A stretch of 64,000 bases of DNA from Siphonodentalium dalli (Eukaryota; Mollusca; Scaphopoda; Gadilida; Siphonodentaliidae). Position numbers and translations under genes: made by a program. The notes under the pieces are model-generated. The model did not search any database, was not told the DNA's origin, and saw nothing but the letters and a program-made list of their open reading frames with translations. This document shows positions 11,924 to 46,700 of this stretch, in pieces. The stretch lies in contig CP136067.1 in NCBI GenBank assembly GCA_032622095.1, positions 74,302,705 to 74,366,704 of the forward strand, in the 5' to 3' direction. How positions within the stretch are numbered: the stretch's first letter is position 1; the number at the start of each line of letters is the position of its first letter.

Positions 11924-12192
11924 CATTTCACAGAAGGTATTTCAAACAAGCTGGTTGGATGTTATGAGAAGGATAAAGATTTGGATAGTGCTGATGTCAT
12001 TCTCATAAGAGTTTATGGCGAAAAAACTGAGCTGTTTGTGGACAGGAATGCTGAGAAAAGAGCATTCTGTAAATTATCAGGACTTGGATGTTCACCGCCT
12101 CTATATGCAGAGTTCAACAATGGTATTTGTTATGGCTTTTTTCCTGGAGCGACTCTTGATGACAAGACAGTGAGGATAGAAAAAATAAGGAG
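11924..12192 (+). CDS. ETNK: Ethanolamine kinase exon (first recognised, N-lobe)
   Basis: The exon starts after the acceptor ...gataatttcag in phase 0 and ends before gtatat in phase 2 (last codon AG|A). It encodes about 90 residues from HFTEGISNKL to VRIEKIR, covering the N-lobe: the GISNKL turn, the ILIRVYG strand, the VDRNAEKRAF helix and the hinge-side NNGICYGFFPG. These align by eye with the ETNK1 segment between FTEGITNKLIGC and LDPKHV. Entry in phase 0 means the missing upstream exon must end on a complete codon. Confidence 0.93.
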
Positions 12193-21100: not shown

Positions 21101-24100
21101 ATGAAAAAACCTCATGCGAAGTAGCAACCAAATAAAAAACAGTAAAATATTTATTTGGAAAGTGAAACTAAACATCATTATTTCTGTTGACCGATGTCTT
21201 CTTCAAATTTTCTATTGTCTAATTAATGTTGAAAAGTGTTCACACTATCTGGATTATTATAAATTAAATGTTGAAATAGGTCACTTGAAACACAATTCAA
21301 TAGTTTTTATACGCCCTTTTTGAAAAAAGGTCGTATTATGTTATCAGTCTGTCCGTCTGTCCGTCTGTCTGTCGAGCCGTCTGTCCGTCTGTCTGTCCGT
21401 CCGTCCGTTAACATTTTTGGTTTCCGATCGATAACTCCAGTTTGGAGTATTTTATCTGAACCAAAGTTGGTATGTGTATTTCCCAGCTAAAGATACAGGC
21501 CAATTTCGAATATGGGTTCCGTCCAATTATTTTTACATGAGTTACGGCCCATTTTCGACTTAGAATTTGACCGTCTGTTAACATTTTTGGTTTCCGACCG
21601 ATAACTCCAGTTTGGATTATTTGATCTGAACCAAAATTGGTATGTGTATTTCCCAGCTAAAGATACAGGCCAAGTTCGAATATGGGTTCCGTCCAATTAT
21701 TTTTACATGAGTTACGGCCCTTTTTCGACTTAGAATTTGACCGTCTGTTAACATTTTTGGTTTCCGACCAATAACTCCAGTTTGGATTATTTGATCTGAA
21801 CCAAAGTTGGTATGTGTATTTATCAGCTAAAGATACAGACCAAGTTCGAATATGGGTTCCGTCCAGTTATTTTTACATGAGTTACGGCCCTTTTTCGACT
21901 TAGAATTTGACCGCCTGTTAACATTTTTGGTTTCCGACCGATAACTCCTGTTTGGATAATTTGATCTGAACCAAAGTTGGTATGTGTATTTCCCAGCTAA
22001 AGATACAGGCCAAGTTCGAATATGGGTTCCGTCCAGTTATTTTTACATGAGTTACGGCCCTTTTTCAACTTGGAATTTTACCAATTTCATAACATTTTGG
22101 TTTCCGACCGATAACTCCAGTTTTGATTATTTGAGCTGAATCAAAGCTGGTATGTGTATTTCCCAGCTAAAACTACAGGCCAAGTTTGAATATAGGTTCT
22201 GTCTAATTATTTTTACATGAATTATGGCCATTTTTCGACTTAGAATTTGACCACATTTTGGCATTGAAATTAGGGGTACATGCATATCAGATTTTCTTCA
22301 AATGTAAGCTCAAAGTATTATCTTATTTTGCGATAGTACAATTCGAAATGGCTAAAGGGCGTATTTTGCCACACCCTAGCGATGCTCTTGTTTGGATATA
22401 ATTTGACAACTCCGCGGATGGAGGTTGACAACACTGTAGTCTGGTCGAGATTTGACTTGACAACCACTCGAATGTCGATTGTGGAACTATACAAGATAGA
22501 GTCCAAATGATATATTCGTATCTTCCCTCATTTTAGTATGTTTCTTGGGATTTTCACGCTTATATGTCTGTACTATTGTTTGAATATTTCCAAGTCTACC
22601 TTTAAGAAGTATGTTATGAGGCAGATGTCACATGCATGTTTGGGAATTTCCAAAGTCACGATTTCAGTATTTTTGTACAGACTGCACAATTTCTTTCATT
22701 GCAGCTCAGATTTGGAGGACCTCAGGTGCATATATGCCTCTGCACAACAGCGAGCCTGATGCTTTAGGGAGAGGCGAATAATCCATTCTATTCGTAGTGG
22801 TCATTTTTCGGAAATAAAAACAACAATAATCAACCGTGGTGTCCCTGTATAATTTTTCAGAACACTTAAATGAAGTGATAATGTCATATATTAACAATAA
22901 CATGATGTTTATAGGTACCAGGGATAAAGATTAACAATCAAGTCACTTCTTTATATATGGTACCAGTATTTAGCCCTACCGATATCACTACATGTAGCTG
23001 GATAATGTCCATTGAAATTGGGACTACCAAAGGGCATGTAAGCGATCCGAGATGATGTATGTTACTCATTTCGAGAAGTAATGAACCATAATGCCCGAAA
23101 AAGTCATGTTGGTTGGCAGGCCACAATGAACGGAGCTAATCTGTGCCAGTTTTTGATGACGTTACAATATTTGGAATGCATCAATAAATATAGAGTATGT
23201 AGCTAGAGTCGTCGCTTAAACTGTTAATGTCTATTGAGTCCAATAGATGCCAAATCCTCCGAGCGGACATAAACACTTTAAGCAACAACATTATCTACAT
23301 ATTTTATTTATCCATTGCACAAAACTAGCCTGTTGTGAGGTAAATCTGTCATTTTCCTTAGTTTTACATTCGTTTTACTCGATGACGCCCTTACATTTGT
23401 CAGGTCAAGCACACTGATTGGCTTTCATGACAGGAAAATCGGAGTGCAGCTTAGAGAGAAATAGTTTGTTGGGATTTTTTAATAATTGTTCTAAGCTGGC
23501 CCTGTTGTAATAATTATAGATGTTTTAGAGTGAAAACACATATCCGTTTACGAATTTTGTATCAAATGCGGTGAATTATGGACGATAAAAACATCCCAAA
23601 GACCACAATGATGTCATTTGGGCCAATTGACAACCCTAGTTACCTGCGCAATTTGCATATACAATTACGTCATGAAACTAGTACTAACCTAATAAAGCTA
23701 CGTTGACCTAATAAAGCTACATTGATGTAATAAACATAACGTTTATTAGGCGTGCTTTTATATGTAGGCAATAGAGGTAGTGAGCGGTGGATAAACACTG
23801 TTAATGGACTAGATAACGCCCTATAAAGTGATGTGGGTGGGATTATTTGGTCGGGAGACACACAATACACTATACTGTAGGCGAGTCCTCATTGTTGCCA
23901 GAATCACCTCTCTCCGCACATCTGGCTCACTGTTGTCGAACGGTTTGCACCCGAGGTCCTCCAAATCTAAGCTGCAACGAAAGAAAGTGTGCATGCAGTC
24001 AGTAAAAAAAATACTGAAATCACATGCCGTTATTTTTCAAAGAGCCCTCAAATTACCTGCAATTTCACTATACAATTAAAGGGACTTTGGAACTTCCCAA

Positions 24101-27100
24101 CCATGGGACATCGGCCTCATGACACACTTCTGAAAGAGAGCCATGAAATTTTTCAATCAATAGAACAGACATAAATATCTATATCATCATGAAAATAGTG
24201 TTTACAAGAGGTACAGTCCGTTAATGTCTGACTAGTGACACAAGTGTCTGAAATGATGTACACACCATAAATGGCGGAAAACGTTGACATGTAAATTTAG
24301 TGAAATTAATTTGTCTAGTTTTCACTCCATGCCACCATGAACCCTCTGTCCATGTTTATTAGTCGCGTTTTTCGACTTATGGTTTGACAAGGGACGGTTG
24401 GCGGGCGGCGGACCTAAAGAATGCCTTATAACTTTGACATTTGTGAACGGATTCAAAAAATATTTGGTATGGCAGTTGCTCCCAATGACTATTTACTGCC
24501 TGTAGAAAATGGGTCATGTCCAAACTTTTTTACAAGAGTTATCCATCTTAGATGGTTTTTAGTTAAGTTATTCACCGATAGCGCGATAACTCACGCAAAT
24601 ATTAACCAATTTCAACAATATTTGGTATATGAGACTCTTGCAACAATATCTCGGACGAGTTTGAAAACCAGGTTTGTCCGAATTTTTTTCTCCGGAGTTA
24701 TGGGTCTTAGTTTGTCTATTTTTAGCAAATTTATCACCGTTAGCACGATAACTCGATGAAATATTAACCGACTTCAACAATATTTGGTATATGAGTCTCC
24801 TGCAACAATATCATGGAAGAGGTCGAAAACCAGGTTTGTCCGAAATTTTCGCGGAGTTATGGGTCTTAGTTTGTCTATTTTAGTTTGTCTATTTTTAGCA
24901 ATTTTATCACCGTTAGCGCGATAACTCGATGTGATATTAACCGATTTCAACAATATTTGGTATATGAGTCTCCTGCAACAATATCTCGGACGAGTTCGAA
25001 AACCAAGTTTGTCCGATTTTGTTTTCGCTGAGTTATGGGTCTTAGTTTGATAATTTTTAGCAATTTTATTACCGTTAGCGCGATAACTCGATGAAGTCTA
25101 ATATTTGGTATATGAGTCTCCTGCAACAATATCTCGGACGAGTTCGAAAATCAGGTTTGTCCGAATTTTTTTCGCGGAGTTATGGGTCTTAGTTTGTCTA
25201 TTTTTAGCAATGTTATTACCGTTAACGCGATAACTCAATGAAATATTAACCGATTTAAACAATATTTAGTATATGAGTCTATTGCAACAATATCTCGGAC
25301 GAATTCGAAAACCTGGTCTGTCCGAATTTTTTTCCGGAGTTATGGGTCTTAGTTTGTCTATTTTAATCACAATTTTATCACCGTTAGTGCGATAACTCAA
25401 TGAAATATTAACCGATTTAAACAATATTTAGTATATGAGTCTATTGCAACAATATCTCGGACGAGTTCGAAAACCTGGTTTGTCCGAAATTTTTTTCCGG
25501 AGTTATGGGTCTTAGTTTGTCTATTTTAATCACAATGTTATCACCGTTAGTGCGATAACTCAATGAAATATTAACAGATTCAATTGATATTTGGTATATA
25601 GGTCTATTGCAATAATATACCACCGTCCAACTTTTTTTCCCGGAGTTGTGCACCTTATTGGCAGAAGTTTGGTTCGACTGCCAAAAAACTCGACAAAAGC
25701 ATCTTAGATGCGTACCCCTTGTTCCCACTGCAATTAGATGCTGTTCCTCAACCTGTGAAACACTCCAAATTTTGAGCAAATGGTTCAATGGACATCGACA
25801 GGATATCAGGGATAAGAATTTTGGTTTTCAACAAACCTGGACATTCAGTGTCGGATATTTGTGTTCAGATTCTAAGAGATGGTTTACCTAACATGATACA
25901 GCGATATTTAGGGGATATTATTAGTTATCTTCGGCAACATCGGGGGTACATGGAGATTTAATACCTGGATGTCGATTTTGAACCCCGAGGCGGATCCGAG
26001 GGGTTCAAAAAGAGACATCCAGGTATTAAATCTCCATGTACCCCACGATGTTGCCGAAGATAACGATTTTGTCCCCACAAAATAACCATGTCTCCTTAAT
26101 TTAAGTGTGTTTTTCATAGGTTTTCCGGTTAATTCACACCAATAAGAATAATTCAGTTGGTGACCTAAGGATTCGGCGTCATGTGACGTCAAATTTGGCG
26201 TGCGAGAGCAAAGTCACGATTGGTGGAAACTGCCAGTTCAAGGGTCATTCATATACCCCCGATGTTTCACGTGCTCATATACCCCCGATGTTTGGCGCAC
26301 GTTCTCTTATACCCTGCTGTCAAGGGTGACGGGGGACATGGTGATTTAAACGTGGGGTTGTAGCCAATCAGATTGCTAGTTACAACCGGATGTGGGGACA
26401 AGGTGAATTATCGACACATTGTTACTGTATGGCTACTAACAGGTCATGATTGTTTGGCATTGTTGTTTTGGACAAGTTTTTAAAACTGTAATATTGGTTC
26501 GAAGCAAAATTGTTTAAATAATAAGAGCCAAACAAGTTTGAAATGTGATGAAAATGTTGGGTCAAGTTTCCAAGTTGTAAAAATAGAAAGGGATATCCGA
26601 CCAGTTCTTGTTTTATCATAACCGTACACATTCTCTGGTCATTATAAATATGTCAAACAGATACCAACAACGCAAAAATACAGTCAGAGGCCTCTATTAT
26701 CTTACCAAAGATGGAGAAAAAATATACATCAAGACTCGGAGTAGTCTCTTCTACTTTTCTCAACCTTTGGACACTTTTTATAACCGGATATTAGTGTCAC
26801 TGTGACAGACAGGAGACACCTCACAATTTGTATAGAAATGAAAAATGTGAGGGGGGAGGCAGGGTGCAACAAAATCGAAAACTAAGTGTCTTTTAAAAAT
26901 TGGCTCACGGCCTATGTAGTTTTGGTGACTCAACAGATGCAACAGGCTGCATATTATCAGTGGCAATACAAACCATTCTACATTTACTTTAGTGAAATAC
27001 TGTATTTTGAAGCATAACTAGATCATCTATTGCATGAATTAGATTACTGATAGTTACAGTTGGTCAGACGCGAATCTCTTGTCTTCCATTAGTAGCACTT

Positions 27101-30100
27101 GATGGCCATTATAAATATTCTCCATAGGGTTCAGTGTTATATTTTGGTAGCCAGTGAGAATAATCTGATCACATCCATATTTTTCTAATTTACATCTGAG
27201 TTTCATACGTAGTACTTTTGAGAAATTTAAATTCGCATATAATTATATGCAAAATGGAGTCATTTATCCAAAATAGGAGAATCTCCATAGGGTTCAATGT
27301 AAAAAATTTATCGCAACTGTAGTCCCCAAAAATCAACAGACCACAAAAAAATATATATATATATTATCTGACGTTCATACTTAGCAGTTGTGACAACATT
27401 TCAAATCGCACCGATCATCATACGCAAATTGACACCATCTATCATTTTTTTTTAAATACGAAAAATGCTCTCTAAATTATGTTGACCCCGTTTTAGGCAG
27501 ACCGTTTAAAATTCTGTGGAAACAGGTTAATCCTGAATATAGACCCACTAGGCATAATCTGGTTTCAGATCGGTTTTATCAAGCAAAAAATGTGATATGA
27601 ATTATTGGAATCTGACTATTTGTCAAATGCATCACTAAATATTGTTTTTGGGGAGGGTTATGTTTTTGTCACATATTCACACTATGTATCGCACAATGAT
27701 ACAACCACTGATAGCAGATGTGCCACGGGTAAAATAATCTATACATAGTGTGACAAAATACGATAACAGAGGTGAAACAGACACATTTAGCCGATTCATC
27801 TTAATGAATTATGTCACAGCTAGCACAAATGTCAAACGATTATCTGGCAACATTTTACCATTTTTAATATCACTGACATGTAAATTGTTTAACAAATCAA
27901 AGGAAGAAAAACTCAAGTTGAAAATAAATTAAGAACCTTATAGACTGATGAACATCACGGGTAATAACCCAAAAATGCATAAAAATAAGGATGGGTAGCA
28001 TGAGGAAAATGCGAACAAAAATTATTTTCCCAGATTCACCCACAATTAGAATATTGGCTATATTAATATGGTTGTTGCTGAATTCCCCTTTCTTGTGAAA
28101 CCTCGGCTAACGAGAGCCCACTATTTATTCAGAGTCTGAGGGAAGTCAGTTGGTATTAGGTATTTGTGCTGAAGAGAAAACATGAAAAAGTGAGACCAAC
28201 TTGCAGCTATACACCTTGGTATGCAAAAACAATAACATGATCCATTCAATTTTAGGTATAAGAAGTTGATTGGCAAGACAAAATCAGACCTACAGGATGA
28301 AGCTGGCCGATTAGAAGACCACCTGTCAAACCTAGACTCTCCTGTCGTACTATGTCACAATGATCTCTTACTTGCCAATATCATTTATAATGAAAAAACA
28401 GGTAAATATATGTACCAGTTGTTTAATAAATATGAAGGGGAATGCACATCTGTATTTAACTAGAGCCAGTATTATAAACACATTTATTCCAGTGTCCCAT
28501 TTTAAAAATCTAGTGTTATTTAAAAACTAAACCACATTGCTTATATATTGATACCATAATTCGAGAAACATGACATCTGTTCTTGATAGAAATGTAAATA
28601 TCCATTACTCCATACTAATTAAAACAAATGACATCATATCTTGCTAAATTGAATACAACATTTATGGTGATATAAACAGTCAGTGTAAATCAAAATCTTT
28701 CTCTCTATTCTTAATAACACCCCATTGTTGCCATCATTTTAAAGCTATTACAAAATATGAAGTAATTCACATCTAGGGGTCTCAGTATGTGCATCGTCAA
28801 AGACACAATGTTCTATTTAGTTTTTATACAACCATTTTGAAAAAAACAACGTATTACGTTATTGGTTCATCCATCATACTGTCTGTCCATCCGTCTGTCT
28901 GTCTATTCCAAACATTCGACAACTTTTCTAGTCCATAAGTGAACGAATACATTAGTTTTTACCTTCGAAATCCGAACATGGAAATCGACACCAACCGAGC
29001 GTACGTGCTGTAGATTTGACATACTTGATGCTGAGCTCTTATTGGCTTTGATGAAAACTGGGGATCCTTTATAAGTTTAAATCTCTGGTCTACATTATAC
29101 TCTTAGTGGTTGTTTTCGTCAGGGACCAGCCGAGAGGGCGGCGTGGGCGAAGAAGTCGCCCTAGCGCCGTCCGCTTCGCCTTATTTTTGCAGTCGGGCGA
29201 AGTTCAAGTCGCCCTGAAATTTCCAAAGTTGACTGCCGAAAATCGGCAAAATGCCCCAAATAATTTATGATAATTACTTGGTTTACAACTGTCAACTGTG
29301 ATTGCACACAATACTCCACTATCAGGGTGTTATAAAACAATTAACACCTGTATTGCTCCAATCTGGAAGCATGTTGACAACCAAGTCTGATTACTGGCAG
29401 CTGTGAAAACATTGTCAGGCCTTAAGTGTTAATCTGGTTGTTGTGATTTTTAGATTACCGTATTTACCACACCTTACAATGAAGATTACAACTCACAGCT
29501 CTCACAGTGTGTCAGAAGAAATTTTAAAACAATTCATTTGTGAAGCATATTAAAATTTCAAACGGGATTACTAATAGAGCTCAGTAAAAGTGTTCAGTAT
29601 TTCGTTTCGTTTCGGTTTGATAAATATTGTTGGCATTTTTAAAAACCCGAAAAATATGAAATAAAATCCTGTCATTCTCCCACAATTACGATATAAAATG
29701 CTGCTATCATCTCACAATTATGTTTGGGTATTATTAATAGTTATTAGGGTCGTGAAGTGAACATAAAGACTCCATATTTCAACCATTGTTTCATAAGTTT
29801 AATTGACATATTACATCTCTCCTATTTTCGTTCTATAGAGACTCCTGTCGTAGTACTGTCTACTGATCAATTTAATTTTTGTAGACTCACTTCGCCCTAT
29901 AGAACGGCCACTTCGCCTTATGTTTATAGTAGGGCGAAGTCATTTCGCCCTGAAAATCTGGTCTAGGCTTGTCCCTGGTTTTCGTGATGGCTCATACAGG
30001 TTGATTAAAACTATTGGTGACAATTAATACACTGCCATCGTGTACTTTTAGCGACCTTCATTAGTGTTTTGTTTGGACAGTGGTCGTAAAAATAAGTGTC

Positions 30101-33100
30101 TACCTCAGCTCAATGATTGATGTAAAAACATAGTGTCAGTGCTCTATTCTCTGTGAAGTCACCATTGTTTACTTATTGTGTGAAATAAGCACAGTTATCT
30201 AATATGACACCTGCTGTTATAATCTGGTTCAAAGCGTTCGTCGAACAAAGTCAAGCTAATAAAATCCAGCAGTACGCATATTCAACAGTAAAAAACTACA
30301 ACACATGTGCTACATTGTCAGCAACATTTTCGATCACCGTATTATCATTTCCATGTTTCCTGTCTTTTCTATATACATGTATTATGTCTTAATATACCAA
30401 GTTTTTAATTCTTATTATACCATGCTTTATCTATGTTATTTATATTTCATTCGGTACTTTATTGAATGAAGTTAAATTCAATAATGAGTTGGTTGTGCTT
30501 CAACAACTCAAACTATTGGAAAATCAGCCAACGTATATCTGAAATGTTTCGGAATATTTACATAAGCCCTCGGGATTCTTTCTGAGTTTACTTTCATTTC
30601 GTGTATCATGATTGGAAAACAACACCGCATGCTGTTCAGAAAGTTTCTGTATCGGGATTACTCCGGACTTTTATCGAGATTTTATGTTTTATAGGCCTAT
30701 CTTTATTATTGATTTAATAGTTTCCTGATATGAGAAATCATCGGTATAATAGTTTTACAGTATCGGGGAACACTTGTCGTAGAGTTATTATATATACAGG
30801 GGTACAATATCGTATTTTACCTGGACAATACACCCCATCCATCAGGAAATCTTCAAAATCAAGTCGCAGGGAGCATACCCAAATATTTATGCCGTTGTAC
30901 CACGCTTAATCGGCACTGCTCTCCGACCATTTCTGGAGATTTTACATTCCACTACCGGTATCCAAATGGCAAATGCAAAAGATTTGTATTTATTTGCGAC
31001 GACACAATGCATGCAGATAAACTGCAGATCTAGATAGACTGGTAGGCAGTGTTAATATGGGATGTCGATCGTACGTTCTATATTTTGCCCGATTCCAGGA
31101 ATTGGGGTCATCCATGTTCACTTTTCTGGGAACAACACATGTGACATAGGCATTACATGGTCATTGGGGGGTCCTAGATCGATCATGCCATGCTTCTCTA
31201 CTCTGGCTAATGTGCCCGTAGTGGCTTTAGTCAAGAGTATAGAGATTCGTGACATGACATATGGGGGTCCCTCTTTATATGTAAGCTATACTTTATATTA
31301 ACAATTTAGTAGTAATTCCGTAGTTTTTTCATGAATCCTAATATGGTAAGTAAAGTGCATCGACTACAGACCTGTGAAAATATGAATGGAAAATTCCTTG
31401 GCGAATCTCCCTATTTCAGTCTCAAGCTGCACACACTAAGACTCATTAGAGATTAGAGATGCATATATATGAAATTGGTGAAAATTGGCGAGTATACAAA
31501 TTCGTATCAAATTTAAGGTCCCCATATCTCTCACCCATAGGCATAGGGCACAAATTTGGTGTATCTAAACGACACGATAAGATTCCTTATATCACAGAGA
31601 AGAATATGTATCAATCTGGTGGAAATCGGCACTTAACATATAGATATAATTTGTTGTGTCCCTCTCATCTCTATACACCACTGACTCGAATGGCCCAACT
31701 TATGACATCCTTAAACCACAGGATTATACTCCTGATATCATGGAGATGATTGTTTATAAGTTTGGTGATAATCGGCGACTAAACAATTTTTTTTATCAAA
31801 TTTGGTGTCAATCCACACCCCCATCTCTCAAACAAACAGCACCACTATGGCGTCTTTAAATCACATGATTAGATTCCTCGTATCTTGGATAAGAACGTGT
31901 ATCAATTTGGTGGAAATTGGCGCAAAAAAATTGTGCATCAATTTTGGTGCCCCTGTCCCTTTCAATGCAACTCTGACTCGAATGAGGCCACATTTGACAG
32001 ATATAAGCAACACCATTAGACTCCTCATACCATGGGGATGATTTTGTATAAGAGTGGTGGCAATCGGCGACTAAACCATTATTATCAAATTTAGTGCCCA
32101 CCCCCTCCCAATCTCTCAACCAAAAGACAAAAATTTGGCGTTGTTAAAGCGCACAATTTGATTCCTTGTATAATGGAGAAGAATATATATATCAATTTGG
32201 TGGAGATCGGCGCTAAAATTAGTTTTTCAATTTTGGTGCCCGTCTCCCCTTCCGTGCATCCCTGAATCGAACGATGCCACTTATAAACCACACCGTTGTT
32301 TTTTTCATATAATGGGTTTGGCGTTGTTAAAGCGCACAATTTGATTCTTTGTATAATGGAGAAGAATATATATCAATTTGGTGGAGATCGGCGTTAAAAT
32401 TAGTTTTTCAATTTTGGTGCCCCTCTCCCCTTCCGTGCATCCCTCACTCGAACGGCGCCACTTTTAAACCACACCATTGGTTTTTTCATATCATGGGGAT
32501 GATTAATATATATAAGTTTGGTGGAAATTGGCGACAGAAAAAAAATCAATTTTGGTGCCCCTGTCCCTTTCAATGCAACTCTGACTCGAATGAGGCCACA
32601 TTTGACAGATATAAGCAACACCATTAGACTCCTCATACCATGGGGATGATTTTGTATATTAAAGAGTGGTGGCAATCGGCGACTAAACCATTATTATCAA
32701 ATTTAGTGCCCACCCCCTCCCAATCTCTCAACCAAAAGACAAAAATTTGGCGTTGTTAAAGCGCACAATTTGATTCCTTGTATAATGGAGAAGAATATAT
32801 ATATCAATTTGGTGGAGATCGGCGCTAAAATTAGTTTTTCAATTTTGGTGCCCGTCTCCCCTTCCGTGCATCCCTGACTCGAACGACGCCACTTATATAT
32901 AATGCTTGCACACGCCATGTTATGCTGGCGACATTGCAAAAAACGCTGTCTCAGGCGGTGTGGTGCAGCGCATACCGCACGTTTTTGTCTGCAGTTGTTC
33001 AGCAGATTCCGCCGTTTGCAGTGACGGTATAGAACGAAGACACCAGACACACAGCAGTTTTCAGTCTAGGTCAGTTTTGGACTGTGATTGTGCATCGCTT

Positions 33101-36100
33101 CACCATGCAGTCAATTTAAACAAAAATATGTGAATAACAATGAAACCATGATATCAACGGAAACTAGTGATGCGGACCGGACCGCTTTGGACCGGTCTGG
33201 TCCGCGGTCCAGGGGTGGACCGCGGTCCAGTCCGGACCGGGTGTCACTGGACCGGACCGCTTTTTGTCGCCGGTCCAGTACTCTCCGGTCCGGTCCACTA
33301 TTTTACTTCAGTTATAATAAACTATAGCGAATATTATTGCGTATTTGCCGTCCTATCAATTAGCAATGATGTATTGACACATTCAAGTGGTTAATATCTA
33401 TTAAACGTGTGATGCCACGAAAACAATGTATAGATGTACTGTGTACATGTCAATTTCCTTATAATGAAAGACAAGACAGTCACATTAATCCCATAGTAGT
33501 TGTACTTAGGTATATAACTGTAATTGTCAGGCCTATACAATCAGCCATCACAATCTCCAAGACTCCAATATTAATGAAGTAGTCATATTAGTACACATTT
33601 GTATAATTGTCATCAGTATAGTTATTTTGTTTAAATTTCAATTTAATGAAAATATGTATGATACGAATCATGCATACGATCAGTTGAGTGCCATGTTAGA
33701 TTGGTTATGACACATTCTGGCCCTAGCTTTTTATCTGTCCAATACATTTAATTAGTGCATGCATGTTCGCATTACTAGAAATACTATTATCGTGCATCGT
33801 TCCCAGTATATCCCACCAGAGACAGACAATGATGCATACAATCGGCAAACAATGTAAGTTTTAACATATATCTATTCATTGCAATGCACTGAACTCAGTA
33901 ACCTTATAGTTTGTACTATACAGAGTAAAAACTTTGAGAAAACAGAGAATTCATTAACATATAGCCTATTTTAGGTGGACCGGACCGTTTTGGACTGGTC
34001 CAGGCATGTGTACCGGACCGGAATGGACTGGACTGGACCGCCTTGGCAGTGGACCGGACCACCCAAGGTGGTCCGGTCCGCATCACTAACGGAAACATAC
34101 GAGTAACTGCAGAAAATGCCGTTGCCACAGAAAAACATGCGGCAAGCTGTGTGGAAGGGCCTTAAAAAGTATGGATTAATATCTTGCAAATTTTTTAGTT
34201 GCTCTAATCCTGTCAAATCATTTTGTAAAAATGCCTTAAGTTGCAAGGACCTAGAATGTCAAATTCTCAAATGAAAAGACATAGTTTTGTTAATACCGGA
34301 TTGTAATTGCTGTGATATTTATGGTGAAGCAAAAAATGTAGATTTCTCTTGTTTTTCGTGTATTTTATTTATTCTCATGCAAATATGTGATGTTGCCACA
34401 AGTATCATGTTGCAAGTTTGTAAGTAAATCAATATACTTGTATCTTTCAGAAACAACTTCCTTCATAGACTATGAGTATGCCTTCCCTAATCATCTTGCC
34501 TATGATATTGGAGACCACTTCACAGAATATGCTGGTGAGTTTAGCTTACCAGAGAAAATTTTGTCAAATCTTCTTTTGTTATCAATGCACACCAATCTTG
34601 CACATTGGCACAGGGTTTCCGCCAGGGAGAAATTAATGAGTCCGTATTGGGGAAACACATAACGCGACGGGACGACCATGGTTCGTCCTGTTGGGCGAAA
34701 ATTTTGTTATTTGACAATGAAAAGTGGCCATTTCCTTGCACCTGAGTGTCCCACAAAGCAATCCAAAGCTACGTATATTATGCAAGTCGATCATTTCCGT
34801 GGGTGTATAAATTCTGTTGATGGTATCCAAATAATTAGTCATGTAATTACGTAACGCACATAAGACTGCCGTCTGATTGGAGACTATATAAATGAACGAG
34901 TTACAGTGTTTACAAATTTATAACTTACAATAATATTCCAAAAGGTATAATGAATCTAAACACTAAAAATGATCTACGCATTGACCAATAATACCTAGCA
35001 AGGAGAATTGGATAAAGTATTTCTTAGAATTTCAAGTAGCGACAGTGAAAATGAAACTGACAGGATTATATATTCTGTCAATCTGTGTCAATCGTAAAAC
35101 TATTTGTGCCCTGTGACATCATACTGCAGGGTTTGTCTGCAGGAAATATTTATAGCAGCGAAATACGAATGGTATATTGCAAAATCTTTCATTCGGAACG
35201 CGTAGCTTGTTCAATAGTCTGTATTAGTCCAACAACAGTTGACGACCGCAGCTATAGAACAGAGTTTTAGCCAACGTGTTATAAAATATAATTGAGTTTT
35301 GGCAGGAAAATGTGAACATGATTGTCGTTGATTGTGCTTGGGGACCCAGGTGGGACAACGAAACTATTATTGACCGTACTTTGACTCTATCTCCATATTG
35401 GGGGGGGTGGGGGGGGGGGGGGCGTATGTGTTCGTGTTTATCCTCCATGTATGTAATATGGCTCAAATGAATGGTGTTGTCACTATGAATTCCTGCTATA
35501 AAGACTGATTTGGGACATGTTCCGTATTATTGTGAAATAAACCACTTTGGGATTTTGTTGAGTATGCATGGCAATATACTCATAATATTCAACACACGTA
35601 GAGAATCACATGTATTTTTCAGGAACTTCACTTACATCGAACTCAAAACAAATGATAATACAGCAATAAGATAATTGATCAACATTGAGTAGTTTCATCC
35701 ACGAAAATCCCTTGCATAAAAATGTCCCGACTCAGCAATTGGGTGTTCTTTGATCCAATTATGTAACCGTACAATAGCAAGGGGTCTTCATCCATAGTTT
35801 CATCCATGGAATCCCGTGCACAAAAATATCCGCACTCAACAGTCCGGCATTCTTTGAAGTTACCGCGACATGTATTACGCTGTATCTAATGTCGCTATTT
35901 GACACGCTTTTTCACCAGTCTGTTTAACTCCCGTTGCAGCCAGATTTTTTTTACGAATCAAACAGATCGTCTGCGAGGGGAATGGGTCCGTGGGGCGGAC
36001 CCGCAGCCGGCCTGGCGGAAACCCTGTGGCATCTCCAAAATTTTCTAAAGATCCTACTGGTACCATTTAAATTTTTTTATTAGACAATCAACGGTGAAGT

Positions 36101-37753
36101 TATGGACATCAAATATTGAAATTTTAGGCTAGAATGCAAACTAGTCGATATTTCATAAGCTGTACTGTTGAGAATGGTGGGGCGAACATATGGGGTAAGT
36201 TTGATAAATCTAGGATCATGAATAATTTATAACATACCCTTTGGCCCTTTGTCTTCTTAATTGCATATATTTCGAGTTGGAAATAACAGGGGGGGGGGGG
36301 TAAAAAAAAGGGCCAAATTGTTTTTTTCCTCCAATTTAACTATTTGACCATTTCTTTTTTCAAATGGATTTTCCCACTCAGTTATGAAAGTATACATTGG
36401 AATGGTCATCAATTATTCATCTGGATGGGTTTTCAGGAAAGATAAGCAGGCAACAGATAGTATAAGTACAGAAGAAGTTGTATTCATTGGAGGGTAATTT
36501 TCAGATAATATGTCATTTGTTGAACTTATTATCTGAACATTTCCTAAGCTGAATACAGATAAAGTCTCTAAGAAATGGTGATTGCAAGTTCTATTCCTTC
36601 AAAACTTAATAAATTTAGGCCTAAAAATCATATACTTTAGTTTTGTTGCAAATAATAAGGCAGAGAGATTGGGAAGATAAAAACTATGAATAATTTATAA
36701 CATACCCTTTGGCCCTTTGTCTTCTTAATTGCATGTATTTCGAGTTGGAAATTACATTACGGTGGCACACTTAACTACAGATGATGATGACACTGATAAG
36801 GTTGAAAAACATTATATGAAAGTTGACATTCTACTGTCAGCTCCTTTACGTCGCTATCATTACTTGAAATGAAAATCCTGCTTTGTTGAGTTTAGCATTG
36901 AAACCAACCCTCACCCACTCTCGTACCTAACTTCTGTACACTCTATACTCTCTCCCAGTTGCCCCTAACATTGCTCTCACCTACCCCCACCCTGTCAGCT
37001 TAGAAATCATTAGGAATCTATATATTATTATACCAGAACTAAACTTGAATTCAACAGCATATATTCTGGTAGGGTGAGTGAGGTAATGCAGGAGCAGGTA
37101 CGTAAATAACTGATAATGTAATTAATGTCTGCACTGTAAACTTAGAAGAGACTTCTCACTTCACACAGAGAGTCTGTTATTGGCAATGAGTTATGTTTAT
37201 CTGGACACTAGATCCATAGATAGTTAACATGGCTGGCAGAGTCTGTTGATAAAAACTGTGATTGATGACTCTCTGGTCCATTTCTGTGCAATATTAAGTT
37301 AACCCCTTTGTTGAAACAGGTTCATGAGATTAGAGACTGACTTATTGTATGGGTTTCTAAATCCAATGATATGCTTTTTATAGACTGTTTGTGTTTATCA
37401 GTTCATTAGTTTGGGTAAGATTAACCCTATTCTATTCGATTTCATAACTCAAATATTTCCATTGATTATGTTTATAGTTCTTGGCATAGTTTATGATAAC
37501 ACACCCCTAACCTGCATAGTGAGGGTCATTTGGTTTATTTGCTTAAAAATATTAACATCCTCCACCAATTCTGTTGACACAATGTGATAACTAAATAATA
37601 TTCACACGATCACTATATAAATAATTGCATCCATGTTAATGATGACACATTCTTCACCTGTATAGATTTTGGTATCGATTGAATGGTTTTGATAATATTA
37701 ACCATAACTTTAATTATATTTCCGCTGTTTACATCTATATCTATATTTGCGAA

Positions 37754-37784
<31 letters not shown>

Positions 37785-40700
37785 GTTCTATAGAAATTCA
37801 CAGGGGACCATCTAGATGATGCCAAAGGGGTCTACTAGGAGTAGCTTTTTACCATTAAGATAATGGTCGGGGTTATAATTTTCTAAAGTGACGCCGTTGT
37901 TGTCAGGGGCAGAAAAGAGGGAGGGGCAGAAAAAAAATTGTTGCCGATTGCCACCAAACTTATATATAATAATCCCTGTGATATGAGGAATCTAATGGTG
38001 TGGTTTAAATATGGCAAAAGTCGCGCCGTTCGCGTCAGGGGTGCCCGGAAAGGGGAGGGGCAGATTTGTTTTTCTGTCGCCGATTTCAACCAAACTTATA
38101 TATAATCATCCCCATGATATGAAAAAAACAATGGTGTGGTTTAAAAGTGGCGCCGTTCGAGTGAGGGATGCACGGAAGGGGAGAGGGGCACCAAAATTGA
38201 AAAACTAATTTTAGCGCCGATCTCCACCAAATTGATATATATTCTTCTCCATTATACAAAGAATCAAATTGTGCGCTTTAACAACGCCAAACCCATTATA
38301 TGAAAAAAACAACGGTGTGGTTTATAAGTGGCGTCGTTCGATTCAGGGATGCACGGAAGGGGAGACGGGCACCAAAATTGAAAAACTAATTTTAGCGCCG
38401 ATCTCCACCAAATTGATATATATATTCTTCTCCATTATACAAGGAATCAAATTGTGCGCTTTAACAACGCCAAATTTTTGTCTTTTGGTTGAGAAATTGG
38501 GAGGGGGTGGGCACTAAATTTGATAATAATGGTTTAGTCGCCGATTGACACCACTCTTATACAAAATCATCCCCATGGTATGAGGAGTCTAATGGTGTTG
38601 CTTATATCTGTCAAATGTGGCCTCATTCGAGTCAGAGTTGCATTGAAAGGGACAGGGGCACAAAAATTGATGCACAATTTTTTTGCGCCAATTTCCACCA
38701 AATTGATACACGTTCTTATCCAAGATACGAGGAATCTAATCGTGTGATTTAAAGACGCCATAGTGGTGCTGTTTGTTTGAGAGATGGGGGTGTGGATTGA
38801 CACCAAATTTGATAAAAAAAATTGTTTAGTCGCTGATTATCACCAAACTTATAAACAATCATCTCCATGATATCTGGTGTATAATCCTGTGGTTTAAGGA
38901 TGTCATAAGTTGGGCCATTCGAGTCAGTGGTGTATAGAGATGAGAGGGACACAACAAATTATATCTATATGTTAAGTGCCGATTTCCACCAGATTGATAC
39001 ATATTCTTCTCTGTGATATAAGGAATCTTATCGTGTCGTTTAGATACACCAAATTTGTGCCCTATGCCTATGGGTGAGAGATATGGGGACCTTAAATTTG
39101 ATACGAATTTGTATACTCGCCAATTTTCACCAATTTCATATATATGCATCTCTAATCTCTAATGAGTCTTAGTGTGTGCAGCTTGAGACTGAAATAGGGA
39201 CGGGAGGGTCACCAACACTGATACAGAATATTTTTAGTACTAATTACCATCAAATTCAGACACGTTCTTCTCAAATGATACAATAAATCAAATAGTGCTG
39301 TCTGTCTGTCTGTGTGCGTTCTATATATAACTTCACGCGGTACAATCGAGATGGCACCATGGCGTTCTATTAAGAGGGGTAACTAATTACAAGGAAGATA
39401 ACGGTGCGGGTAAAATTTTCTAAAATGACGCTGTTGGTGTCAGGGGAAGAAAAGGGGGAGGTCGGCAAAATTAAAAATATATCGTGAAATAGTTTTGTCG
39501 CCGATTTCCACCAAACGAATACATAATCACCTTCGCAATATGGCGTTGTTCGACAATCAACAATTGATTTAATAAACTATTTTTAGCCCAGATTTCCACC
39601 AAATTGATATATTATTGTTCTCTATGATACGAGGAATATCATCGTGTGATTTAAAGACGTCAAATTACTCTTACTATTCTCAGAATTTGTTTAGTTGCTG
39701 ATTACCACCAAACATATATATAATCATCGCCAGTATATCATGCATCCATGAGTCTAATGGGAGTGGTTTAAATATGTCAAAAGAGGCAAACGCTGGTACA
39801 AATTTATTTGGCACCAATTTCCACCGAATTCATACACGTTTTTCTCTAATGATATACCATGAATTAAATCACATTTGGTGTCGTTTGCGTCGCGGATGGC
39901 GAGCGGATATGCACTACCATTGATAAGATTGCTATTCGCCTTTATCCACATATAAGTTACTAGCAGGGTTACCCGGCGTTGCCCAGGTTAATGCGATGAG
40001 AAACCCTCTGTATGCTGTGGATTTTTGTTGGGGATAGAGAATGCTCTTGCTTAAAAGTGTAATACTTTTTCTCATAATACAGAATAAAATAAGGACCCGT
40101 CTAATGAATAAAGAATAAAATAAGGACCCGTCTAATGAACAAGGAATACAATAAGGACCCGTCTAATGAATAAAGAATAAATTAAGGACCCGTTTAATGA
40201 ATAAAGAATAAAATAAGGACCCGTCTAATGAATACAGAATAAAATAAGGACCCGTCTAATGAATACAGAATAAAATAAGGACCCGTCTAATGAATAACGA
40301 ATAGAATAAGGACCCGTCTAATGAATAACGAATAGAATAAGGACCCGTCTAATGAATAAATAATAAAATAAGCACCCATCTAATGAATAAAGAATAGAAT
40401 AAGGACACGTCTAATGAATAAATAATAAAATAAGGACACGTCTAATGAAAAAAGAATAAAATAAGGACCCGTCTAATGAATAAAGAATAAAATAAGAACC
40501 CGTCTAATGAATAAAGAATAAAATAAGAACCCGTCTAATGAATCTATATCTATATTTGCGAATGTCTGTCTGTCTGTCTGTCTGTCTGTCTTGTCTGTCT
40601 GTCTGTCTTCTATAGAAATTCACAGGGGACCATCTAGATGATGCCAAAGGGGTCTACTAGGAGTAGCTTTTTACGAGAAAGATAATGGTCGGGGTTATAA

Positions 40701-43700
40701 TTTTCTAAAGTGACGCCGTTGTTGTCAGGGGCAGAAAAGAGGGAGGGGCAGAAAAAAAATTGTTGCCGATTGCCACCAAACTTATATATAATAATCCCCG
40801 TGATATGAGGAATCTAATGGTGTGGTTTAAATATGGCAAAAGTCGCGCCGTTCGCGTCAGGGGTGCCCGGAAAGGGGAGGGGCAGATTTTTTTTTCTGTC
40901 GCCGATTTCCACCAAACTTATATATAATCATCCCCATGATATGAAAAAAACAATGGTGTGGTTTAAAAGTGGCGCCGTTCGAGTGAGGGATGCACGGAAG
41001 GGGAGAGGGGCACCAAAATTGAAAAACTAATTTTAGCGCCGATCTCCACCAAATTAATATATATTCTTCTCCATTATACAAAGAATCAAATTGTGCGCTT
41101 TAACAACGCCAAACCCATGATATGAAAAAAACAACGGTGTGGTTTATAAGTGGCGTCGTTCGAGTCAGGGATGCACAGAAGGGGAGACGGGCACCAAAAT
41201 TGAAAAACTAATTTTAACGCCGATCTCCACCAAATTGATATATATATTCTTCTCCATTATACAAGGAATCTAATTGTGCGCTTTAACAACGCCAAATTTT
41301 TGTCTTTTGGTTGAGAGATTGGGAGGGGGTGGGCACTAAATTTGATAATAATGGTTTAGTCGCCGATTGCCACCACTCTTATACAAAATCATCCCCATGG
41401 TATGAGGAGTCTAATGGTGTTGCTTATATCTGTCAAATGTGGCCTCATTCGAGTCAGAGTTGCATTGAAAGGGACAGGGGCACCAAAATTGATTTTTTTT
41501 TTCTGTCGCCGATTTCCACCAAACTTATATATAATCATCCCCATGATATGAAAAAACCAATGGTGTGGTTTAAAAGTGGCGCCGTTCGAGTGAGGGATGC
41601 ACGGAAGTGGAGAGGGGCACCAAAATTGAAAAAAAAAATTTAGCACCGATCTCCACCAAATTGATATATATTCTTCTTCGTGATATAAGGAATCTAATTG
41701 TGTGATTTAACAACGCCAAACCCATGATATGAAAAAACCAACGGTGTGGTTTATAAGTGGCGTCGTTCGAGTCAGGGATGCACGGAAGGGGAGAGGGGCA
41801 CCAAAATTGAAAAACTAATTTTAACGCCGATCTCCACCAAATTGATATATATTCTTCTCCATTATACAAGGAATCAAATTGTGCGCTTTAACAACGCCAA
41901 ATTTTTGTCTTTTGGTTGAGAGATTGGGAGCGGGTGGGCACTAAATTTGATAATAATTGGTTTAGTCGCTGATTGCCACCACTCTTATACAAAATCATCC
42001 CCATGGTATGAGGAGTCTAATGGTGTTGCTTATATCTGTCAAATGTGGCCTCATTCGAGTCAGAGTTGCATTGAAAGGGACAGGGGCACCAAAATTGATG
42101 CACAATTTTTTTGCGCCAATTTCCACCAAATTGATACACGTTCTTATCCAAGATACGAGGAATCTAATCGTGTGATTTAAAGACGCCATAGTGGTGCTGT
42201 TTGTTTGAGAGATGGGGGTGTGGATTGACACCAAATTTGATAAAAAAAATTGTTTAGTCGCCGATTATCACCAAACTTATAAACAATCATCTCCATGATA
42301 TCAGGAGTATAATCCTGTGGTTTAAGGATGTCATAAGTTGGGCCATTCGAGTCAGTGGTGTATAGAGATGAGAGGGACACAACAAATTATATCTATATGT
42401 TAAGTGCCGATTTCCACCAGATTGATACATATTCTTCTCTGTGATATAAGGAATCTTATCGTGTCGTTTAGATACACCAAATTTGTGCCCTATGCCTATG
42501 GGTGAGAGATATGGGGACCTTAAATTTGATACGAATTTGTATACTCGCCAATTTTCACCAATTTCATATATATGCATCTCTAATTAGTGTGTGCAGCTTG
42601 AGACTGAAATAGGGACGGGAGGGTCACCAACACTGATACAGAATATTTTTAGTACTAATTACCATCAAATTCAGACACGTTCTTCTCAAATGATACAATA
42701 AATCAAATAGTGCTGTCTGTCTGTCTGTGTGCGTTCTATATATAACTTCACGCGGTACAATCGAGATGGCACCAAGGCGTTCTAAGAGGGGTAACTAATT
42801 ACAAGGAAGATAACGGTGCGGGTAAAATTTTCTAAAATGACGCTGTTGGTGTCAGGGGAAGAAAAGGGGGAGGTCGGCAAAATTAAAAATATATCGTGAA
42901 ATAGTTTTGTCGCCGATTTCCACCAAACGAATACATAATCACCTTCGCAATATGGCGTTGTTCGACAATCAACAATTGATTTAATAAACTATTTTTAGCC
43001 CAGATTTCCCCCAAATTGATATATTATTGTTCTCTATGATACGAGGAATATCATCGTGTGATTTAAAGACGTCAAATTACTCTTACTATTCTCAGAATTT
43101 GTTTAGTTGCTGATTACCACCAAACATTATATATAATCATCGCCAGTATATCATGCATCCATGAGTCTAATGGGAGTGGTTTAAATATGTCAAAAGAGGC
43201 AAACGCTGGTACAAATTTATTTGGCACCAATTTCCACCGAATTCATACACGTTTTTCTCTAATGATATACCATGAATTAAATCACATTTGGTGTCGTTTG
43301 TGTCGCGGATGGCGAGCGGATATGCACTACCATTGATAAGATTGCTATTCGCCTTTATCCACATATAAGTTATATACAGTCACCAGGCCATCTCCATATC
43401 ATTTTAAGTAGGTTTGGACGCTCACATTTCACAATCTCGACATATGGTGACCCACTTAAGTCACTTGAACAATTATATCTTCTTAACTGGCATATGTATA
43501 TGGGAATAGCAATCAGGCATTCACAAAATGAGCTAGCAAAAAGAGATACATAGAACAAGCATTAAACGTATATTTATCATTCTATTGAAGAGATACATAT
43601 ATTCGTCAAACTGAGAGACCCCGAACCGTCAGAGGATTGCATATATATTATAACAAAATTGAGTCTGTTCCATTCAATACAGTTTCCACAAAAAAGTTAC

Positions 43701-46700
43701 AATTTGTCAAGAGATATCGAAGGCCTGTTCAAAAACAATTGTCACAGTGTGCAGTCAAATATAGTTTATTCTGATATACAAGAAAATGCAGTTAGTAGCA
43801 TAAGACTTTTTCAGGATCCTCCAAATACTGCATATCTGACAAGGGTTTTATAACAGACTCCTCGACTGACATAAACAACTAAAAATCTCGCTCTGTGCCT
43901 GGCACATGTAGCTATTATTTATGCGCATCAACATTTCGTTAAAACTGAGAATAGTTAGCCAATATATAGCACCATGAACAGAGGAGCACCTGGAAATTTC
44001 TTTGAAACATCTGTATCTTCATGGAGATAGCCAGGTGTCCTCGAGAACTTAGTCCAACCCACTAAATTGATTGACACATCTCAATATTTAAAACCCAATT
44101 ATCATCTTTTATCGAATTAATGTGTTTATGATGTTCATGTATCATATTATAACGTCTAATGTATACGCAGTTGTAAATAAATACATACTTCATTATTGTT
44201 GGAACGGATTAATCGCGACAAACAGAATGACAATTGACAAGGTGAGCCACTACTTATATCCCATGACTGTAATAATCATGTTTTATGATGCTATTTGAAT
44301 ATACAAATTATGAGAAAAAGTATTACACTTTTAAGCAAGAGCATTCTCTATCCCCAACAAATATCCACAGCATACAGAGGGTTTCTCATCGCATTAACCT
44401 GGGCAACGCCGGGTAACCCTGCTAGTACATTATATCTTTCCAATGATCAGCTTAGAAGAAAATTAACCCACCCCATTCCATAGTCATACAGTATGCTATC
44501 CAATGTAATGAATCTAATATTTTCAATCTGACCAATCTTATATCCTACCTCTAGCTATCTGAAAATTCTACATTAAAACATTTTATATCCAATCATTATC
44601 AATCATTTTATATCCAGGTCTATACATCCCTCACTTGTATAGTTGTTCAGGTATTGATTAGTTTTTGAATCGGAAATATTAACCCTTTTCTCCCATCTAA
44701 ATGATCCCATTAATTTTTAATATGCAGTTAACACAAAACATAATAAAACAAATAACAAAACAAAAAAAACATTCCAATGCAATAAGCAAATAAATGGAGT
44801 TGCTATGATGTTTATCTACTTAATGTCTTAACTATTTTGTCTTTAACTGCTATGGTGCTTCTCTCTGACTATGGATTGAGCTTAATTAGCTTTATCACTC
44901 TATAAGACATATCTGTGTTGGAGTGACCTAATAGGTTGAAATCAAATGCCACAACCGTGTTCCTATTGTGTTTATGTGAGCAAGGTAAGACATATCTGTG
45001 TTGGAGTGACCTAATAGGTTGAAATTGAATGCCACATCCTTGTAGCTATTGTGTTTTTGTGAGCAAGGTGTCCAATAAGTCTGATTCCACTTGTGACCTT
45101 AATAGTGAGGTGTGAATTGTTGAAACTTTTGCACTCATGAAAAGGTTGGTGTAAGGATTTATTAAAATAGCTAATCGGAATGGCCAAGGTATGGGTTAAT
45201 CATCTGCCGATCATGATCGGCCTCTCGTTTTAAAACGGAGTTATGTCTTACGGATTTTAGCGTCCAAGCTGAAAACAGCTGATCACTATTGCCAAGGTAT
45301 GGGTTAAACATCTGCCGATCGTGATCGGTCTCTCGTTATGTAATTGCATATATTAGAGTGGAATGTTTAGAGGTGTAATCCGTCCTCCTATTTGAGTATT
45401 CTTAGCATAGAGTCTCAGTGGTAACGTATCTTGGTAAGGAATTTTTTTTTTTTATATTTCATTCTATTTTCCTTATTACGATCACTGAGACCAGAGTCCC
45501 TACCAGCCTGCCCCGGTTACACCTCTAGTTGGGGCGCTCGCAAAGTAAAGTGAGGAATCTGGGGTAACCCGGATTGGGTAAACTACTATACTCGTACTTT
45601 AGATTTTGCATTCTGTTTTTCCTTTGAAATGGTTACGCTCAATTAACCCATCAGTTGTTGGTCCTATTTGCATGGGGAGGGTGAATTAGCATAGTGTCTC
45701 AGTGGTAAGTATCTTAATAAGGAAATTAAAATGTGATATCAAATTTTTGTATTTTTCTTCTCAACTGCTTGCTGTGTACTATGAAAAACGAAAGCGATGG
45801 TTCCTATTTAGATAAGTAGTCAGCAGAGTATGAGCGAACAAGAGAGAGTGAGCAACAGAGAGAAAGAGAGGGGAGAGGAAGCGAAAGGTATAAAGTGTGA
45901 CAGCGAGAAGAATGTAATATTTAAGATGAGAAACTGGAAACGTTATTTATGGAAGTATCCAAATTTCCCACTGGAAATTTGAAGCCTGGTTATTATTATT
46001 ATTCTCTATCGCAAATGATGACAACCTGAATCCATTTCTTATTTTTGTTTCAGGCATTGACAATATTGATTACACAAAGTATCCGGATAAAGATTATCAG
46101 CTTGAATGGTTAGAATGCTACCTAAAATACTGGAATGAAGTCGATGGAAAGGAAGATGATCCAGTGACACAGAAAGATGTTGAAACACTTTATGTTCAAG
46201 TCAACAAATTCGCTCTGGTTAGTACAATCCTCAGTTTCAGGCCTTGTCGTTTGAAAAATACAGGAGAGCAATAATCTCCCTACGTAAATCACCCCAAGAG
46301 AGCATAATTTATTGGGAAGACATGGCAGGATATGCTGAAAGCATATCCCGAGGGCCGTTGGTCCAGGATGGTCATGGGTTGCGAAGGAGTGTCCCCCTCC
46401 CAATGTCAGGAAAACTTTGAGTTTTAATTCTTTGAGAGTCAATCTATTGTCCGGCTGCCAAAGCACTAAGTGTGTTTTTGCTTATAAAGTTTTTTCTCTC
46501 AGTGGATTCCGGTGATCTAGGGCCACTATTAAAAATATTTGTGTTTGTCCACTCCTGACCCTAGATTTTGGAAGTGGGTAGGTAGGTACGTAAATATTTT
46601 ATATTTTTTTTCATTAGACCTGATATTTATACCATGTTATAATTTTCCCATATAATAAAACATATCACAAATATCATGATTCGGCATGCTTTATTTGACT

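Follow-up and report, generated by a model that had tools for sequence, protein, structure and literature searches.

Inverted repeat blocks around a catalytic exon of a Siphonodentalium dalli kinase gene as probable copies of a Helitron-type transposon

In a stretch of 64,000 nucleotides from the scaphopod Siphonodentalium dalli (contig CP136067.1), hereafter the window, an exon encoding a catalytic motif of a kinase gene lies between large repeat blocks: one, block A, in the preceding intron and, in opposite orientation to it, two direct copies, C1 and C2, in the following one. Probably these blocks are young copies of a non-autonomous Helitron-type transposon, whose placement around the exon is coincidental, the exon itself being normally included. 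A non-autonomous rolling-circle element, with satellite-like tandem repeats and a TGTC microsatellite, would have spread recently into the long introns of the gene, leaving two copies head to tail in intron 4, with a second element piece having a like 3' end between them, and an internal fragment in opposite orientation in intron 3. Pairing of these arms in nuclear pre-mRNA could then lead, at a low level, to back-splicing, skipping of the exon or A-to-I editing as by-products. The features are collected in Table 1.

Table 1. Features of the kinase gene and of the repeat blocks, in window coordinates. Slashes within sequences mark borders.
Feature	Position	Strand	Basis
Exon 3 (window numbering), Brenner's motif HNDLLLANI	28256..28401	+	motif, frame of joined exons
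Block A, probable internal fragment of Helitron-type element, intron 3	31408..32897	-	BLAST identity to C1/C2; mosaic
Exon 4 (numbering within window), choline-kinase motif FIDYEY...N...YD......E	34451..34534	+	splice sites, frame, PF01633
C1, probable Helitron-type copy	37734..39959	+	5' end TCTATATC after A, (TGTC)n, tandem units; 3' end of second element cuts it off at 39959
(TGTC)n microsatellite, 20 bp from C1 5' end	37754..37784	+	tandem-repeat listing
Second piece, probably Helitron-type	39960..40542	-	3' end (hairpin and CTAG/T) at 39960
C2, second direct copy	40543..43371	+	5' end TCTATATC after A, (TGTC)n at 40563-40608, tandem units
Putative 3' part of C2	43372..44425	+	ends in hairpin (ACCTGG with CCGGGT) and CTAG/T; terminus common to reverse piece at 39960
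Exon 5 (window numbering)	46054..46217	+	frame of joined exons

Repeat blocks and element ends

When the window was compared with itself by BLAST, block A matched both intron-4 copies in reverse: 31408-32683 corresponds to C1 39200-37940, with 95.6% identity over 1277 columns, and 31408-32897 to C2 42615-41145, with 96.5% over 1493 columns. The near-identical inverted block reported in the initial annotation is thus confirmed, including its placement and reverse orientation, while its span, given there as 31409-32893, had to be corrected at the end to about 32897. C1 and C2 are direct copies of each other, 95.6% identical over 2032 columns (37940-39959 against 41359-43372) and 85.0% identical over 1471 columns (37733-39140 against 40542-41989). 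The longest exact runs, 322 columns for A-C1, 413 for A-C2 and 277 for C1-C2, far exceed chance, and the A-C pairs are the sole inverted pairs larger than 1 kb within the window. Differences are clustered: bins of 100 columns hold only 0-3 of them in 11 of 13 cases for A-C1, 10 of 15 for A-C2 and 14 of 21 for C1-C2, and the remaining, difference-rich bins would reflect register shifts between tandem units, which measure 181 bp (38111-38474, 40933-41296, 41540-41901).

Beyond the edges of block A the same comparison listed no similarity of at least 100 bp, and the block has neither end of the longer intron-4 copies, and is therefore an internal fragment. Block A is a mosaic of C1-like and C2-like parts. 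Over A_rc 415-1490 (block A taken in reverse) 10 substitutions without any gap column separate it from C1, against 23 substitutions and 16 gap columns for C2; over the corresponding 1062 columns, C1 and C2 differ by 26 substitutions and 16 gap columns. A_rc 215-414 is instead C2-like, with 1 substitution and 9 gap columns to C2, against 29 and 17 to C1. The lack of termini and the closeness to C1 over A_rc 415-1490 were counted against the explanation preferred here.

Both C1 and C2 start with A/TCTATATC, and their left flanks differ, each ending in A (37734 and 40543). A terminus made of a hairpin and CTAG/T was found twice, with CTAG at 44425 and in reverse at 39960, and the reverse of 39950-40078 matches 44307-44435 with 97.7% identity; beyond the reverse 3' end lies a minisatellite whose 31-bp unit is repeated about 15 times (40076-40543). 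The part ending at 44425 probably belongs to C2, and no second copy with both ends was found within the window. C1 reads GTTA and then the reverse terminus (GTTA/CTAG...), whereas C2 runs uninterrupted through GTTA/TATACAG at 43371/43372 (...GTTATATACAG), a difference that reads as expected for an insertion between A and T; this A/T evidence is one-sided, being drawn from the left junction of C1 against C2, and the insertion at 39959 has lost its right-hand end. The two 3' termini are alike for about 10 bases past CTAG (8 of 10 letters), so that their right flanks are not wholly different, and it is the comparison of C1 with C2 that fixes the border. The 3' hairpin, 7 nt from CTAG, has a stem of 6 pairs, including one G-T pair, and a folding energy of -3.2 kcal/mol as DNA, a value without shuffle control. 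The end motifs are common in the window by themselves (TCTATAT 15 times on the forward and 7 on the reverse strand, CTAGT 40 and 28 times), so the weight is carried by the shared borders alone; when perfect GC-rich stems ahead of CTRR were sought automatically, one unrelated site was listed and not the termini at 39960 and 44425. From the whole of these observations we infer transposition by a Helitron enzyme and a young age of the copies.

A 96-residue reading frame, noted earlier as identical between block A and C2, is indeed so, yet this merely restates the identity of 298 bp of DNA; over the same region, 2 of 300 bases are different between A and C1. A coding reading of the repeat frames was dropped as support, frame identity being DNA identity, and the Pfam search of two block frames, which covers the element in part, returned no families. 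No Rep/helicase gene was seen in the element parts scanned, which non-autonomous members do not need, and no autonomous partner was found. An origin from an RNA gene or a tRNA was also dropped, as the window contains no Rfam families at the gathering threshold and no tRNAs (ARAGORN, bacterial code). Searches with the 3'-end pattern in viral contigs and with the 5'-end pattern in prokaryote and virus genome contigs gave no matches, and a search of viral contigs for relatives of a 99-residue frame gave 10 pattern-matching stretches, none confirmed; all of these have little bearing on animals.

The kinase gene and the exon between the blocks

Judging from its translated exons, the gene belongs to the ethanolamine/choline-kinase family and appears ethanolamine-kinase-like. 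PF01633 (Choline_kinase) matches all four exon ORFs scanned, out of 7 exons; three of the matches clear the curated cut-off and one falls short of it (21.1 against 29 bits), the match of the ORF containing exon 4 having an E-value of 2.7e-8. The best relative with a solved structure is 2qg7, 'ethanolamine kinase'. Brenner's motif and the choline-kinase motif, as defined in PMC4364537, are both present, the latter opening with T in place of I/L/V. In human choline kinase, magnesium is coordinated by Asp-330 of the choline-kinase motif, and activity is lost when this residue is mutated (PMC7368946).

The initial annotation had described exon 4 as a multiple of three, with phase 1 on both sides, encoding the IDYEY metal site, and this description stands. 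The exon is 84 bp long, in phase 1/1, with AG in front and GT behind, and its splice sites are good by eye (acceptor ending in TCTTTCAG, donor G/GTGAGT); the translated exon contains the choline-kinase motif. Joined, the exons of the gene read open to a single terminal stop, and the frame stays open, with 28 residues fewer, when exon 4 is left out. Two of the five exons tested (2 and 4, among exons 2-6) can be skipped in frame, so that the length of exon 4 says little. The exon is the fourth within the window, but its true number is probably higher: an acceptor-like AG precedes the exon at 11924, which makes a further exon upstream probable.

Placement, pairing and alternative explanations

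In a simple intron-length model, the probability that a third copy, randomly placed and oriented, lands in a neighbouring intron in inverted orientation is about 0.125; that it is inverted and separated by one exon or more has a probability of about 0.38. No function has to be invoked for the layout, since the blocks look like transposon copies and the former odds are about 0.125. Chance most likely accounts for their position around the IDYEY exon, and nearly all mRNA most likely contains exon 4 as usual. Pairing of the arms in pre-mRNA is plausible by energy calculation, a 393-nt piece of A being predicted to form duplexes of -716.8 kcal/mol with C1 and -695.3 kcal/mol with C2, whereas 10 letter-shuffled versions of the C2 piece average -113.6. 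Low-level back-splicing, skipping or A-to-I editing may thus take place as by-products, a splicing consequence of the repeats being nevertheless of low probability. The pairing originally suggested to loop the exon out has premises that hold, in that strong inverted complementarity flanks the exon, which is symmetric and carries the catalytic motif, but transposon copies alone can explain the layout. Inversion of the DNA between the blocks, also suggested, would put the exon on the wrong strand and is thus expected to break the gene.

It seems improbable that the arms regulate the gene, pairing of A with C1 or C2 looping the exon out and giving rise to appreciable amounts of an exon-4 circle, of a dead isoform shorter by 28 residues, or of both. 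Such a role would make use of the exact complementarity (runs of 322 and 413), of the absence of other inverted pairs above 1 kb, of the two pairing options offered by the intron-4 arms and of a symmetric exon whose choline-kinase motif is complete save for its first position; the arms, however, appear to be young transposon copies, with neither conservation nor use indicated, they lie 1.6 kb before and 3.4 kb after an exon with good splice sites, and the placement odds are not small. In mammals, moreover, circular RNAs are associated with young (inverted) transposons and, according to PMC8516420, are mostly read as by-products of splicing. The library searched contained no paper on circular RNA and ETNK1 exon 4, on two named mutations in connection with ETNK1 exon 3, or on circular RNA with flanking introns in a mollusc. 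That a recent Helitron array set a strong and still intact pair of double-stranded RNA arms around the catalytic exon of this lipid-pathway kinase, yielding a circle of exon 4 together with a dead kinase read in frame, at levels that vary between individuals according to whether they have the intron-3 fragment, strikes us as very improbable indeed.

Somewhat less improbable, though still unlikely, is that block A was copied locally, in inverted form, from the intron-4 array by template switching or repair, that conversion has kept it similar, or that the assembly is at fault; local duplication or conversion is a possible source of the block. The absence of both element ends, the closeness of A_rc 415-1490 to C1, greater than that of C2, and the C2-like A_rc 215-414, which makes the block a mosaic of its two neighbours, would all fit such an origin, but a mosaic is also expected from other family members outside the window, and stand-alone arrays without ends are described in oyster (PMC8268682). 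The spread of a Helitron-type element is preferred.

The case as it stands is a routine transposon finding, concerning a common kind of element, and nothing here shows any control of the repeat blocks over exon use. Ordinary transposon traffic can yield a striking pattern of inverted repeats around a catalytic exon; if splicing responded, the locus would be a natural test of the effect of kilobase-long, near-identical arms on exon choice, in an animal with intronic Helitron-type elements.

Comparison with known elements

Canonical Helitrons start with TC and end in CTRR, have a palindrome about 11 bp before that end and insert between A and T (PMC4067079). As in their non-autonomous forms, TC follows A at the 5' end of the present copies, a hairpin and CTAG followed by T mark the 3' end, and a one-sided sign of A/T insertion is found; unlike in canonical ones, the hairpin is weak and 7 nt, not about 11, from CTAG. 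The likeness is to a general description, and the link between 5' and 3' ends comes from one copy.

Oyster Helitron/Helentron elements carry satellite-like tandem repeats, with 4-nt microsatellites GTCY, GTCC and GTCK in several of them; stand-alone arrays are known, and a route to copy arrays without 3' ends has been proposed (PMC7492417, PMC8268682). Compared by layout and not by sequence, Cg_HINE and Helitron-N of Crassostrea gigas, as described in the same papers, resemble the present element in that a short tandem array follows a 4-nt microsatellite close to the 5' end and that stand-alone and truncated copies occur. Membership of the HINE group was dropped, because its defining subterminal inverted repeats were not found here: with the 3' end assumed to be that of C2, the best exact match between 5' and 3' subterminal regions is 7 nt, a length that 246 of 1000 shuffles also attain.

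The arrangement also recalls the mammalian circular RNA loci with young inverted transposons described in PMC8516420. The present element, unlike theirs, is of the tandem-repeat Helitron type and known from DNA alone; in both, little-diverged inverted copies lie in the two introns around one exon, within a host gene that is low in GC and rich in repeats.

A kinase gene and its symmetric fourth exon

The DNA is eukaryotic-looking, given its GC content (38.3%) and a spliced gene, and presumably comes from an invertebrate. Seven exons, reported below, were joined into one 315-residue frame; as AG precedes the first of them, a further exon probably lies upstream of 11924. Sequence similarity places the gene in the ethanolamine/choline kinase family: Pfam Choline_kinase was matched in all four exon ORFs scanned, out of the seven exons, three scoring over the curated cut-off and one under it. 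The top solved-structure relative of the hand-joined query is 2qg7 (E 7.9e-18), whose annotation is ethanolamine kinase; choline/ethanolamine kinases and choline kinase alpha chains rank behind it. The putative assignment to ethanolamine kinase proper rests on this structural match, together with a fit to the human ETNK1 sequence.

Gene and repeat features of the window
Feature	Position	Strand	Remarks
Exon 1	11924-12192	+	AG before, GT after
Exon 2	19800-19937	+	AG before, GT after
Exon 3	28256-28401	+	AG before, GT after
Block A	31408-32897		intron 3, reverse relative to C1 and C2
Exon 4	34451-34534	+	AG before, GT after
C1	37734-39959	+	intron 4, Helitron-type copy
3' terminus	39960	-	short hairpin + CTAG then T; shared with 44425
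C2	40543-43371	+	intron 4, Helitron-type copy
3' terminus	44425	+	short hairpin + CTAG then T; shared with 39960
Exon 5	46054-46217	+	AG before, GT after
Exon 6	51919-51992	+	AG before, GT after
Exon 7	59670-59742	+	AG before; terminates with stop codon

The initial annotation described exon 4 as frame-neutral and as encoding a metal site, and both points hold. The exon (84 bp long, entered and left in phase 1) encodes ETTSFIDYEYAFPNHLAYDIGDHFTEYA, which contains all but the first position of the choline-kinase motif as defined in PMC4364537. Asp-330 of this motif in human choline kinase is described as coordinating magnesium, its mutation abolishing activity (PMC7368946). Omitting exon 4 in silico keeps the frame open with a loss of 28 residues, and omitting exon 2 likewise keeps it, while omission of exon 3, 5 or 6 shifts it, with stops ahead of the proper end: two of the five exons tested (2 and 4) are therefore symmetric.

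Inverted blocks and the nature of the repeat

Near-identical inverted blocks do surround exon 4, as first noticed: block A aligns in inverted orientation with C1 (37940-39200) at 95.6% identity and with C2 (41145-42615) at 96.5%, the longest exact runs being 322 and 413 columns, respectively. The blocks contain 181-bp tandem units, and 100-column bins with 0-3 differences are 11 of 13 for A-C1, 10 of 15 for A-C2 and 14 of 21 for C1-C2. The identical long frame also claimed does exist (99 residues, at 31450, recurring in C2); it simply reflects identical underlying DNA.

Within the window, 59 non-overlapping inverted pairs of at least 60 bp were counted at E up to 1e-5; 50 join block A to C1/C2, many as register-shifted matches between the same arrays. 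The other nine span 61-129 bp, four of them enclosing at least one exon; these four include a 62-bp pair that flanks the last exon. Only A-C pairs exceed 1 kb.

Block A is a mosaic (positions counted on its reverse strand). Over 415-1490 it is C1-like, with 10 substitutions and no gaps against C1 and 23 substitutions and 16 gap columns against C2; C1 and C2 differ by 26 substitutions and 16 gap columns over the like 1062-column stretch. Over 215-414 it is C2-like, with 1 substitution and 9 gap columns against C2, and 29 and 17 against C1. It may have reached intron 3 by its own insertion or by copying from its neighbours.

C1 and C2 share the start TCTATATCTATATTTGCG, immediately 3' of an A in both, and differ in their left flanks; a (TGTC)n microsatellite begins 20 bp into the element, followed by tandem units. 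The two 3' termini lie in segments 97.7% identical in reverse orientation (39950-40078 and 44307-44435). Similarity extends about 10 bases beyond CTAG (8/10 alike), so that their right flanks are not fully different; in C1, these bases are part of the C1/C2 repeat. The reverse terminus breaks C1 at 39959 after GTTA, where C2 reads GTTATATACAG, and its border is fixed through this comparison; the terminus at 44425 would be the 3' end of C2 itself. Canonical Helitrons are described as having 5' TC, 3' CTRR, a palindrome and insertion between A and T (PMC4067079). The start, the hairpin with CTAG and the insertion site appear to be such marks, though with caveats: the hairpin is weak (-3.2 kcal/mol, 7 nt from CTAG), a stricter automatic scan did not pick up these termini, and the window is rich in the bare end motifs (TCTATAT, 15 on + and 7 on -; CTAGT, 40 and 28). 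At 40076-40543, within or beside the reverse Helitron-type piece, a minisatellite with a 31-bp unit, repeated about 15 times, extends as far as the start of C2.

Exons 2-6 are flanked by direct copies of another large dispersed repeat, probably of a separate transposon family (13921-17392 and 54715-57390; three main pieces, 87.5-91.6% identity, internal units in common). A reverse-strand frame at 58670-58948, containing CRSCRKCRTVVYIGETERMLGERMKEH, resembles the GIY-YIG endonuclease of Penelope-like elements; a Pfam search of this frame returned no families.

Possible effects of the arms on exon 4

The arms, which end 1.6 kb short of exon 4 on its upstream side and resume 3.4 kb beyond it downstream, were proposed to pair in pre-mRNA, giving an exon-4 circle or a dead in-frame isoform, or to support DNA inversion. 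For a 393-nt piece of block A with C1 or C2 the predicted duplex is about -700 kcal/mol, against about -114 kcal/mol when the letters of the C2 piece were shuffled (10 shuffles), as expected from near-perfect complementarity. A simple placement model, using lengths alone and taking C1/C2 positions as given, dropped a third copy randomly, in random orientation, among the introns between the seven exons: the chance that it lands inverted in an intron adjacent to intron 4 is 0.125, and the chance that it lands inverted with some exon in between is 0.38; the arrangement is therefore unsurprising. In mammals, PMC8516420 associates circular RNAs with young, recently active transposons and interprets many as splicing byproduct. 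We expect circular or skipped exon-4 products at low level at most, and the splicing mechanism is a candidate of modest prior plausibility. Recombinational inversion between the arms, with exact tracts over 300 bp, would be possible in principle; it would harm the gene, because exon 4 would be turned around.

Comparison with known Helitron-type elements

The repeated blocks appear to be a new example of a known transposon kind sitting in introns. Unlike HINE elements, the C1/C2 element has no detected subterminal inverted repeats (best 7 nt, matched by 246 of 1000 shuffles), and was therefore filed as Helitron-type, not HINE. Other tandem arrays (about 170 and 162 bp, respectively) occupy 21347-22252 and 24556-25618; the former adjoins a preceding GTCC/GTCT microsatellite, a layout resembling Helitron-borne satellite arrays. 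PMC7492417 (section 7) and PMC8268682 describe, in the Pacific oyster, satellite-like arrays with 4-nt microsatellites borne by Helitron/Helentron elements, arrays that stand alone, and a way in which tandem copies without 3' ends can arise; like those elements, C1 and C2 carry a 4-nt microsatellite and then tandem units.
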